Below are positions 37,666 through 39,537 of a stretch of 55,594 bases of DNA, piece after piece. The first letter of the stretch is position 1, and each line of letters begins with the position of its first letter. Source of the DNA: Porticoccaceae bacterium (lineage in GTDB: Bacteria > Pseudomonadota > Gammaproteobacteria > Pseudomonadales > Porticoccaceae); assembly GCA_029246925.1 (NCBI GenBank), contig JAQWMF010000102.1, positions 1 to 55,594 on the forward strand. The letters are read 5' to 3'. The position numbers were made by a program, and so were the translations under genes. A model generated the notes under the pieces. It did not search any database, had not been told where the DNA came from, and was given only the letters and a program-made list of their open reading frames with translations.

Positions 37666-38079
37666 ATGAAAGCAGTAGTAAAGTGGGTAGATGGCGTTAT
37701 GTTTTTAGGGGAGTCAGGTAGCGGGCACTCAGTGGTTATGGATGGTGCGCCAGAGCAGGGTGGTAGAAATATGGGTGTGCGCCCAATGGAAATGCTTCTT
37801 TTAGGCCTTGGGGGCTGTGCTTCCTACGATGTTATTGCGATGCTAAAGAAAGGCCGCCAACAAATAGTAGATTGCCGAGCTGAGGTTGAGGCCGAGCGGG
37901 CAGATGCTGTCCCTGCAGTATTTAGCAAGATACATATTAAGTTTATTATTACTGGCAGTGACCTAAAAGAGAAACAAGTAAAACGTGCCGTCGACCTATC
38001 GGCAGAAAAATACTGCTCTGCTTCAATTATGCTTGGAGCGGCTGGGGTTGCTATGAGCCATAGCTACGAAATTCAGTAA
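37666..38079 (+). CDS. OsmC family protein (YhfA-like)
   Basis: The 137-residue protein has the OsmC fold pattern with GVRPMEMLLLGLGGCASYDVI near residue 38, containing the first conserved Cys, and VDLSAEKYCSASIML near 109, containing the second. The family reduces organic hydroperoxides or acts in general thiol stress. It is divergent from crp across 155 bases, as in Pseudomonas and E. coli (crp-yhfA). The region downstream holds the small RNA candidates. Confidence 0.9.
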   Translation: MKAVVKWVDGVMFLGESGSGHSVVMDGAPEQGGRNMGVRPMEMLLLGLGGCASYDVIAMLKKGRQQIVDCRAEVEAERADAVPAVFSKIHIKFIITGSDLKEKQVKRAVDLSAEKYCSASIMLGAAGVAMSHSYEIQ

Positions 38080-38098: not shown

Positions 38099-38127
38099 AA
38101 AAAAAAGGGAGCCAAAGGTTGGCTCCC
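38099..38127 (-). terminator. Intrinsic terminator of small RNA candidate 1
   Basis: On the minus strand an eight-base stem (GGGAGCCA with TGGCTCCC, five-base loop) is followed by eight T (38106-38099). The T tract lies on this strand only; on the plus strand the stem is followed by TATAAATTC. It therefore terminates a minus-strand transcript, yet no minus-strand protein gene lies upstream. Confidence 0.82.
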
Positions 38128-38200
38128 TATAAATTCTTTGGACAAATCGCAAAGAGGGGTTTGGGGAAGAAAGCTGCTAAGGGGTAGCTATCTTTCTAAG
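38099..38200 (-). ncRNA. Small RNA candidate 1 (about 100 nt)
   Basis: The predicted transcript starts near 38200, seven bases after a TAGAGT -10, and ends in the terminator T tract. Its 5' half can fold into a stem (AGAAAG with CTTTCT, inner GCT/AGC) whose loop displays ACCCCTT. It then carries CAAACCCCTCTT at 38163-38152. That 12-base motif is repeated exactly in candidate 2, at the same 24-base distance from the terminator stem. No start codon with a ribosome-binding site is present. The C-rich stretches complement Shine-Dalgarno sequences, suggesting a base-pairing regulator. Confidence 0.6.
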
Positions 38201-38206
38201 GCGCGC

Positions 38207-38236
38207 ACTCTAATGTTCGGGCTAACATTAATCCAA
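38207..38236 (-). promoter_or_regulatory. Promoter of small RNA candidate 1
   Basis: On the minus strand TTGGAT (38236-38231) and TAGAGT (38212-38207) are 18 bases apart. The context AATGCA-TT directly before the -35 is the same as in the second promoter at 38475-38504, which also has an 18-base spacer and a -10 ending in AGT. Confidence 0.55.
38211..38230. promoter_or_regulatory. Inverted repeat within promoter 1
   Basis: TAATGTT and AACATTA form perfect seven-base arms around a six-base spacer. The repeat fills the -35/-10 spacer of the small RNA 1 promoter, a position suited to a repressor. Promoter 2 has no equivalent repeat. Confidence 0.4.
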
Positions 38237-38252
38237 TGCATTTTATGCATAA
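38234..38252. promoter_or_regulatory. LysR-type box upstream of small RNA 1
   Basis: CAATGCA-N5-TGCATAA is a near-perfect inverted repeat that contains the T-N11-A pattern of LysR-family sites. It overlaps the -35 of the small RNA 1 promoter. The same repeat, perfect this time, occurs at 38502-38520. Confidence 0.5.
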
Positions 38253-38287
38253 TTGTCATTACATTTTGTTATGACCCTATGCTAAGC

Positions 38288-38313
38288 AAAAAAAAGGACC
38301 CTGTGAGGGTCCT
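38288..38313 (-). terminator. Intrinsic terminator of small RNA candidate 2
   Basis: An eight-base stem (AGGACCCT with AGGGTCCT) with a three-base loop is followed on the minus strand by a run of T (38295-38288, the first paired). On the plus strand the stem is followed by A residues. It therefore serves a minus-strand transcript. Confidence 0.82.
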
Positions 38314-38468
38314 AAAAAAATCCTAAAGCAAGGATATAAGAGGGGTTTGTTACCGTTCGCATTCATCAGGCATCTTGATGCTTAACGTTTAAACTGCCTT
38401 TAGTTTGTCGCTGTTGGTTTAGCGCTAAAACTTATAAATCGTTCAAGCCGATTAGTCATGGCTTTATG
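38288..38468 (-). ncRNA. Small RNA candidate 2 (about 180 nt)
   Basis: The predicted transcript starts near 38468 and ends at the terminator. It carries the identical CAAACCCCTCTT motif at 38349-38338, 24 bases before its terminator stem, exactly as in candidate 1. A small hairpin (ATCCT with AGGAT) lies between motif and terminator. Its 5' part is longer than candidate 1 and contains a 19-codon frame (38459-38400, starting MTNRLERF) without a ribosome-binding site, so a dual-function RNA is possible but unsupported. Confidence 0.55.
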
Positions 38469-38474
38469 GTTGAT

Positions 38475-38504
38475 ACTATATGGTGCTTCATGCCATAATT
38501 CTAA
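38475..38504 (-). promoter_or_regulatory. Promoter of small RNA candidate 2
   Basis: On the minus strand TTAGAA (38504-38499) and TATAGT (38480-38475) are 18 bases apart and directly follow AATGCA, the same geometry as the small RNA 1 promoter. Confidence 0.55.
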
Positions 38505-38520
38505 TGCATTGTTTGCATTA
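38502..38520. promoter_or_regulatory. LysR-type box between small RNA 2 and lysR
   Basis: TAATGCA-N5-TGCATTA is a perfect seven-base inverted repeat with the T-N11-A pattern. It overlaps the -35 of the divergent small RNA 2 promoter and ends 36 bases before the LysR start codon, the classical place for a LysR regulator to control itself and its divergent target. Confidence 0.55.
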
Positions 38521-38556
38521 ACATTATGCGTTTTGGTAATAACCATAGGAGCGGTG

Positions 38557-39537
38557 ATGAATCTCCAAAGACTATCTCGGCTAGACTTAAATTTATTGGT
38601 GTCTTTGCAGGCGCTATTGGAAGAGAAAAGCGTCACTAAAGCCGCTGGGCGACTATTTATAACTCAGCCGGCCATGAGTCGAGTTTTGCAACGCCTGCGA
38701 GACCAGCTAGAAGACCCGCTGTTTACAAGAACCGGCAATGAGCTAGTTCCCACCCCAAGAGCCAGAGCGCTGCAAATGCGATTGCCAGGCTTGCTTGATA
38801 CAGTGTTAGAGATGGTTAGCGAGGGAGAGTTTGATCCTGCAACCTATGTGGGTGAAATCAATATTGCAGTTCCGGAATTTGTGGCTATCTCATTGGTTTC
38901 TGAATTAACTCGCGTAATTACTGAGCATGCGCCTAATGTAATCCTATCCATTTCCAGCGAAACCGACTCTGTAGAAGGCGAATTGGCAGAGGGAGTGTTG
39001 GACTTTGCCATTGATGTTGAGCGCGGAGTGACTGAGGATATTTCCTCCAAAAGGTTAGCTATTTTTACCCCCTCAATATGGATGAGGGAGGGGCACCCCC
39101 TAGCCAACAATTCTGAAGTTACCCTTGATGAAATATTAGAGTATCCCTTTGTGCAGTATTACTTACTTATTTCAAAACGGGTGAGTGCGCGAACTGATGC
39201 TCGATTTGATAAGGCACTGCGGGATCTGGGAAGAAAGCGAAAAAAAGCGCTAGTTACCAATCAGTTAATGACGGCAATGGAAACGGTTTGTGGTACAGAT
39301 TGCCTAATGGTAGCCGCTAAATATGGCATGGCTTTAGATCGTGAAATGTACAGAATTGTGCGTAAACGTTATCCCGCGGGATTGCCCCATGTGGGTACAA
39401 TTCCAATGGCCCTATTGCAGCACAATAGAACCGCAAGTTCGCCGATTCATAGTTGGGTAGCTAATCAGATCGTTAATTTGATTAATGGATGGCAGCAAAA
39501 TCTTGATGCCGATCGCGAAAGTATTTCAAGTAAGTAA
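38557..39537 (+). CDS. LysR family transcriptional regulator
   Basis: The protein starts MNLQRLSRLDLNLLVSLQ and has the N-terminal winged helix (KSVTKAAGRLFITQPAMSRVLQRL, of which SVTKAAGRLFITQPAMSRVL is the core) and a periplasmic-binding-like effector domain. It resembles the LeuO/NahR subgroup. The frame is open upstream to 38458, but AGGAG five bases before the ATG at 38557 fixes the start, giving 326 residues. It is divergent from two small RNA candidates whose promoters carry LysR-type boxes. No metabolic target gene is adjacent, so the effector is unknown. Confidence 0.9.
   Translation: MNLQRLSRLDLNLLVSLQALLEEKSVTKAAGRLFITQPAMSRVLQRLRDQLEDPLFTRTGNELVPTPRARALQMRLPGLLDTVLEMVSEGEFDPATYVGEINIAVPEFVAISLVSELTRVITEHAPNVILSISSETDSVEGELAEGVLDFAIDVERGVTEDISSKRLAIFTPSIWMREGHPLANNSEVTLDEILEYPFVQYYLLISKRVSARTDARFDKALRDLGRKRKKALVTNQLMTAMETVCGTDCLMVAAKYGMALDREMYRIVRKRYPAGLPHVGTIPMALLQHNRTASSPIHSWVANQIVNLINGWQQNLDADRESISSK

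Follow-up and report, generated by a model that had tools for sequence, protein, structure and literature searches.

Tandem predicted C-rich small RNAs beside a divergent LysR gene in SAR92-clade Porticoccaceae, and the loss of a small membrane-protein ORF

In a stretch of 55,594 nucleotides from a SAR92-clade Porticoccaceae genome (hereafter the window), the interval between a yhfA/OsmC-family gene and a LysR-type regulator gene carries two tandem units on its minus strand. In each, a palindromic operator, promoter, and leader precede the motif CAAACCCCTCTT, and a hairpin and then an intrinsic terminator follow it. This arrangement raises the question of whether the units are genuine small RNA (sRNA) genes and, if so, what controls them, where they came from, and on what they might act.

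Two tandem units beside a LysR gene

The source genome is a 1.55-Mb assembly, 91% complete. Gene order in the window is crp (minus strand), the yhfA/OsmC-family gene (plus strand, 37666-38079), the interval with the two units, the LysR-type regulator gene (plus strand, 38557-39537), and coq7 (minus strand). The regulator gene, 96% identical to Porticoccaceae/SAR92-clade records, encodes 326 aa with the Pfam domains HTH_1 and LysR_substrate, and its product is the putative dedicated regulator of both units. The top NCBIfam model for this protein was BsrA, at 109 bits against a cutoff of 480, and the closest solved chain was 2uye (E 1.5e-20), which we take to be DntR. Searching the whole 55.6-kb window with cmscan yielded no Rfam match at gathering score, GcvB included. 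A permissive Rfam scan of 551 bases returned 11 matches, all under their own cut-offs, with suhB/mmgR at the top (24.3 bits against a cutoff of 41). Both predicted RNAs are a new sRNA family, without an Rfam match.

Read along the minus strand, unit 1 opens with an operator, the palindrome TAATGCA-AACAA-TGCATTA (38502-38520), identified from sequence and comparison. Its promoter (38475-38504), assigned through promoter alignment with relatives, has a -35 of TTAGAA, 18 nt, and a -10 of TATAGT. The predicted sRNA of ~181 nt (38288-38468), with its start inferred from the -10, contains the C-rich motif (38338-38349), then hairpin A (ATCCT...AGGAT, 38320-38335), paired in 44 of 44 distinct alignment rows, and finally the stem-loop of the intrinsic terminator (38295-38313); a T run follows both the hairpin and the terminator stem-loop. 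Unit 2, also on the minus strand, has the operator TTATGCA-TAAAA-TGCATTG together with the -35 TTGGAT (38231-38252), and its -10, TAGAGT, lies 18 bases from the -35 (38207-38212). Its predicted sRNA of ~102 nt (38099-38200, start likewise inferred) comprises a first stem-loop, the unpaired CCCCAAACCCC, a second stem-loop, and the terminator, with the C-rich motif at 38152-38163 and the terminator stem-loop, then a T run, at 38106-38128.

An earlier note on this DNA had described two minus-strand terminators with T runs, an identical 12-base motif in each unit, and two promoters sharing one design (AATGCA, a -35, 18 bases, and a -10), all of which are present at the positions above. It had further placed the motif 24 bases from the terminator stem in both units. 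This is correct for unit 1; in unit 2 the distance is 23 bases, or 24 if the stem is drawn one pair shorter. CAAACCCCTCTT occurs only twice in the 1.55-Mb assembly, once per unit. A plain sigma-70 consensus scan of the interval detected neither minus-strand promoter, both sites that it called being on the plus strand, and the three terminator-like sites in the interval represented no excess over shuffles (2.0, sd 1.3). Judged on a single sequence the case is modest, and it is conservation that makes it strong.

Conservation, operator, and RNA structure across the clade

The comparison rests on 80 relatives of the LysR gene (the best of 102), with identities of 35-96%. In the window and the SAR92-like loci L033-L084, elements were sorted into 50 of unit-1 type and 34 of unit-2 type; a further one, in L074, was left unclassed. 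Across the 50 unit-1 elements, 15 motif columns (ACCCCTCTTAATCCT) were 96-100% identical, compared with 34-72% in the preceding 13 columns, the CCCC columns being conserved by construction because a C run ahead of a terminator was the criterion for choosing elements. Between the window and five close relatives, the operators were 96% (unit 1) and 86% (unit 2) identical, the stretch from -35 to -10 was 90% identical, the motifs 98 and 100%, and the sequence from motif to end 94 and 93%, while the leaders were only 65 and 69% identical and the inter-unit stretch 74%. The earlier note had suggested comparing the locus in related genomes and searching both RNA intervals with covariance models and Rfam; the first of these shows motif and terminators conserved while leaders drift. 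The genus comparison, in which the units appear with their motif, terminators, and operator and with conserved, related promoters, bears out the claim of two real RNA units beside a divergent LysR gene.

Covariance models were built from hand-cut sets of 12 unit-1 (R1) and 15 unit-2 (R2) sequences, and members of these sets that are found again are non-independent matches. Unit 2 of the window scored 74 bits with R2. A strong unit-1 copy was located at lysR in 48 of 50 genus genomes: R1 gave 59 matches of at least 45 bits in these genomes, and all 59 were within 1.5 kb of lysR. The two genus genomes without a match of this strength are 71-73% complete and have no LysR match either. Counting weak matches, R1 hit 49 genomes, of which G046 had only a match of 24-35 bits away from lysR. 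Five R1 matches of 24-35 bits off lysR were inspected (L118, L119, L196, L197, and L203) and proved to be motif-less terminators or unrelated, and a search for the motif in the five weak-match loci L198-L202 found none.

When R1 was run at E 1e-4 against 390 genomes from the order, 13 had a match, nine of which belong to this genus. The four others were a clear copy in G107, a repeat of that copy in G469, and two spurious matches. As R1 matches are nearly confined to the genus, the exact unit-1 RNA is essentially a SAR92-level family. The clear copy belongs to the sister genus, where locus L195 (G107:C26, 984-1044) has, away from lysR, a unit-1 RNA and a shorter version of the small ORF described below, both behind a site that resembles the operator. 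The G469 locus (L179) is approximately a base-for-base copy of it, and G469 may be the same organism as G107 or may contain a mis-binned contig. On the sequence of L195, repeated in L179, the module can apparently sit in trans.

Several loci depart from the common layout. A 41-bit unit-1-like RNA (CCCCCCCATTAATCC, hairpin, terminator) lies off lysR at 1733-1794 of L116 (G053:C49), where the neighbors look by eye like metal uptake and Fur-family genes. At L117 (G049:C86, 1179-1853), three tandem unit-1-type RNAs stand beside a single lysR, so that unit number differs between species. Six relatives (L076-L078 and L080-L082) retain the LysR gene with no unit or operator adjoining it. These six form a well-supported group, and the 3 kb upstream of their lysR has trpC in place of an OsmC-family gene.

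We then considered the operator. Exact sites for ATGCANNNAATGCATTNG numbered 78 in 47 of the 50 genus genomes, against 0 for a reversed-pattern control; 75 of the 78 were within 1.5 kb of lysR, and the remaining three were inside coding genes. A longer 24-base operator pattern, allowing up to one mismatch, was searched in 110 family genomes; it hit lysR contigs in 46 genomes of the genus, and also three genomes of the sister genus (in G107 and G109 beside the gene on the lysR contig, in G106 elsewhere), with one match for the reversed control. In relatives the operator abuts the -35 at a fixed spacing (88 operators, 45 loci), and the commonest -35/-10 pair is TTTGGA/TATATT, 18 bases apart, in 22 of 88 promoters. 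Given an operator nearly exclusive to the lysR locus, the divergent LysR has the look of a regulator devoted to its own neighborhood; to judge from where the sites lie, the units are probably almost all that it controls directly through sites of such strength.

Covariation was assessed in type-pure alignments fitted to the models, mixed-type lists having given larger numbers (5 of 6 pairs for the unit-2 hairpin). Two-sided base-pair changes were present in 6 of 8 pairs of the unit-1 terminator and, for unit 2, in 3 of 6 hairpin pairs and 4 of 8 terminator pairs. Hairpin A of unit 1 was paired in 100% of cells, with two-sided changes in 0 of 6 pairs; being invariant, it provides no covariation evidence. 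None of the shuffles attained the covariation scores of the real alignments, a contrast that relatedness inflates. In the window, the fold of the unit-2 RNA was strong (z -4.59, with 0 of 200 shuffles as low) and that of the unit-1 RNA weak (z -1.5). The unit-2 fold test was extended to 31 RNAs from the window and L033-L069, with L048 left out because its operator was too distant to set a start. All 31 had a hairpin of at least 5 pairs ahead of the motif (mean z -1.74, with z below -1 in 25), and ACCCN was unpaired in 26 of the 31 minimum-energy folds. Over the 8 bases from CCCC, the mean unpaired fraction was 88% versus a 52% background in unit 1 and 56% versus 48% in unit 2. Both units fit the anatomy of Hfq-type sRNAs, namely a short RNA with a predicted unpaired seed and a terminator with a long U tail.

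A small membrane-protein ORF and its loss

Most relatives have one unit, of the unit-1 type, that doubles as an mRNA, with a Shine-Dalgarno site and an ORF of 34-40 aa (MTLVYILIGFTGLAGAAIAKDDF...) ahead of the motif (37 loci); in L083 and L084 the small ORF is 46 aa. The 34-40 aa peptide carries one hydrophobic segment, and seven of the small proteins from relatives matched no Pfam or NCBIfam family at cut-off. Over the first 27 codons of 35 distinct sequences, pN was 0.105 and pS 0.486 (uncorrected), and with pN well under pS the ORF is under purifying selection. It was present in 41 of 50 genus genomes, G019 being counted on a weak partial match. The nine without it are the seven genomes of the window's subclade and two incomplete genomes that also lack a LysR match. 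The subclade is a single clade (100/100) nested among ORF-bearing lineages, in a placement that goes through moderately supported forks. Comparison thereby locates the loss of the ORF in the window's subclade, most likely as a single event.

A ready explanation of these data is that the units are mainly mRNAs for the small membrane protein, that their conserved 3' part is a stability or termination element, and that the window's copies are relics. The breadth of the ORF across the genus and its purifying selection suit this account, as do the related small ORFs that adjoin LysR homologues in other Gammaproteobacteria. Relics, however, would sit poorly with the identities reported above: the ORF-less subclade has kept the unit-1 operator, both motifs, and the stretch from motif to end while its leaders diverged. 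That the subclade lost the ORF yet kept operator, motif, and terminator argues that the RNA itself is functional. Moreover, in the loci examined, ORF-less units elsewhere in the clade retain the C-rich motif: the distal unit in L039-L051 and L057-L069, the proximal one in L052-L055, L070-L075, and L079. We therefore regard a purely messenger role as unlikely. A type I toxin-antitoxin pair, with the small hydrophobic protein as toxin and the second RNA as antitoxin, would account for an sRNA lying next to a peptide of 34-40 aa that has a single hydrophobic segment, but the units are in tandem on the same strand, not antisense, and both RNAs persist after the loss of the ORF, which makes such a pair very improbable.

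We instead judge it likely that this is a local SAR92-clade module of LysR-controlled, tandem, base-pairing sRNAs, one of them ancestrally a dual mRNA whose ORF was lost in the window's subclade. Under this proposal, the LysR protein, sensing some ligand, would bind the palindromic operator (ATGCA, 3-4 bases, ATGCAT) that abuts the -35 of each unit, and so would control the tandem pair of small RNAs (~180 and ~100 nt). Both would expose their C-rich ACCCC by a hairpin and would close with a strong terminator and its U tail. Their likely action would be to pair with G-rich stretches near the translation starts of several mRNAs, so that the C-rich RNAs would presumably repress by base pairing. 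In the ancestral state, one unit would have been a dual mRNA that encoded a 34-40 aa membrane peptide and ended in the conserved RNA element; in the window's subclade, the ORF would then have been lost and the RNA retained. Transcription of the units, LysR binding and its sign, a part for Hfq, and the targets of both RNAs are what we infer from sequence here. Continued selection on the 3' RNA element of a former mRNA, after loss of the ORF, would amount to a natural experiment.

Units of a related kind are seen beyond SAR92. In Porticoccus and other Gammaproteobacteria (L085-L112, judged by eye, some loci showing neither peptide nor RNA), divergent small units lie beside LysR homologues and have related peptides (...GLxGSAIAxDDL...) or C-rich RNAs with terminators, on which grounds the module may be old. 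Divergent ORFs 24-53 aa long, encoding a hydrophobic segment and ends of the GLxGxIAxDD type, were noted beside the non-SAR92 LysR homologues of L085, L100, L102, L103, L104, L107, L108, and L110, and are possibly an undescribed family of small membrane proteins.

Known systems and putative targets

The earlier note knew of no described family with such an arrangement. As to the kind of arrangement this does not stand, as both LsrB/VtlR-AbcR1/AbcR2 and gcvA-gcvB are in print; for the SAR92-clade sRNA module itself, we found none in print among open-licence papers. In rhizobia and Agrobacterium, according to passages of three papers (PMC7486931, PMC8844928, PMC12595884), AbcR1 and AbcR2 (RF02345) are tandem homologous sRNAs beside the LysR gene lsrB/vtlR, and an ultraconserved stretch with the C-rich anti-Shine-Dalgarno sequence UUCCCCUC lies between two stem-loops. 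The same passages report that activation of AbcR1 depends on LsrB, that VtlR also activates small-protein genes, and that the VtlR motif is CAATGCAGCCATGCA. The SAR92 units are similarly tandem, paralogous, and LysR-adjoining, with a C-rich motif before the second stem-loop, and the VtlR motif as given there resembles the SAR92 operator AATGCAAACAATGCA, both containing ATGCA. They differ in that the lysR of SAR92 is divergently oriented and an sRNA unit carries the small ORF, whereas the VtlR-activated small-protein genes of Alphaproteobacteria are, in the passages cited, tagged far from vtlR.

A search with RF02345 gave 0 matches in the window's own genome at gathering score, and AbcR membership was rejected; 12 of 299 phylum genomes were over the cut-off, so the search works. 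Orthology of the regulators was likewise rejected, LsrB from the AbcR locus being 22% identical to the SAR92 LysR over 184 aa. Used as a query in six SAR92 genomes, LsrB matched other LysR proteins in all six, and the module's LysR was absent at E 1e-5. The same results bear on the idea that the units are transferred alphaproteobacterial AbcR (alpha-r15) members that came with their LsrB/VtlR regulator. The shared layout, the common CCCCUC, and the similarity of the operators, as far as the VtlR motif is set out in those passages, speak for a transfer, but the missing RF02345 match and the low identity to LsrB leave it hardly credible. From the sequences, the best reading of the likeness to the LsrB-AbcR module is convergence.

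Two further systems invited comparison. The gcvA/gcvB pair, as described in part of PMC1557403, consists of a gene for a LysR activator and an sRNA transcribed divergently from it. The SAR92 module also pairs a LysR gene with divergent sRNA, and membership was rejected given no GcvB Rfam match in the window and a GcvA model score of 39 bits against a cutoff of 288. gcvB is a single sRNA gene and has no ORF. In the CcsR/CcaF1 locus of Rhodobacter, of the cuckoo RNA family, a small-protein gene is followed by several sRNAs in one co-transcript, and the relevant sections describe an RpoHI/RpoHII promoter, RNase E processing, and a DUF1127 RNA-binding protein (PMC10253847). In SAR92, by contrast, each unit has a promoter and a terminator of its own, and the hydrophobic peptide matches no Pfam family; cuckoo membership was rejected, seven small proteins from relatives giving no DUF1127 match at E 1. 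The CcsR sRNAs carry a C-rich motif.

A broader reading, on which we are evenly divided, is that the module arose independently in Gammaproteobacteria as a counterpart of the LsrB-AbcR-small-protein module. The regulator's only strong operators would be those of its own sRNA units, and a dual unit would have become a pure sRNA by ORF loss in a small-genome branch; the homologues in Porticoccus and other Gammaproteobacteria would suggest an old, widespread, and undescribed module. If true, the design of LysR, tandem C-rich sRNAs, and small protein known from rhizobia and relatives would have originated a second time here.

The earlier note had also proposed pairing with GAGGGG-type ribosome-binding sites, for which pattern searches gave no backing. 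The 10-base complement TTAAGAGGGG had 109 sites in the 50 genomes, including the RNA loci themselves, versus 114 in the reversed control, and so is not enriched. Another 20 TTAAGAGGGG sites were inspected; seven were flagged before an open frame, two of them being the same site at a ribosomal-protein-like gene, and no gene was more widely common among the 20. AGAGGGG-N3-10-ATG gave 15 sites in the window's own genome and 4 when reversed as a control, but none of the 15 precedes a plausible gene start; the only long ORF opened (456 aa) begins at an internal Met of a longer frame. GAGGGGT-N2-11-ATG gave 63 sites in the seven subclade genomes versus 31 in a reversed control that was not composition-matched. 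We examined 62 of the 63, the one omitted being the RNA locus itself, with ORFs under 45 aa not shown. No gene start was common to more than two of the seven genomes.

The lack of a shared ribosome-site target in these searches would be expected if the C-rich RNAs were decoys for an RNA-binding protein and did not pair with mRNAs, and many unit-2 RNAs carry the C-rich stretch twice (ACCCCTACCCC), which also suits a decoy. Against this, we know of no C-binding RNA-binding protein from these bacteria, and we give the decoy explanation little credence. On the base-pairing reading that we prefer, candidate targets come from the GAGGGGT sites, which yielded three gene starts, each in two of the seven subclade genomes: one in G055 and G060, and two in G030 and G035. 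The gene start of G055 and G060 (L247, L280), which is not widely shared, is preceded by GAGGGGT and is a possible target; by sequence, we take the gene to be a ZnuB-like permease. The module is carried by the apparent isolates MOLA455 (L066), HTCC2207 (L067), H231 (L051), and H921 (L039), and is thus directly testable.
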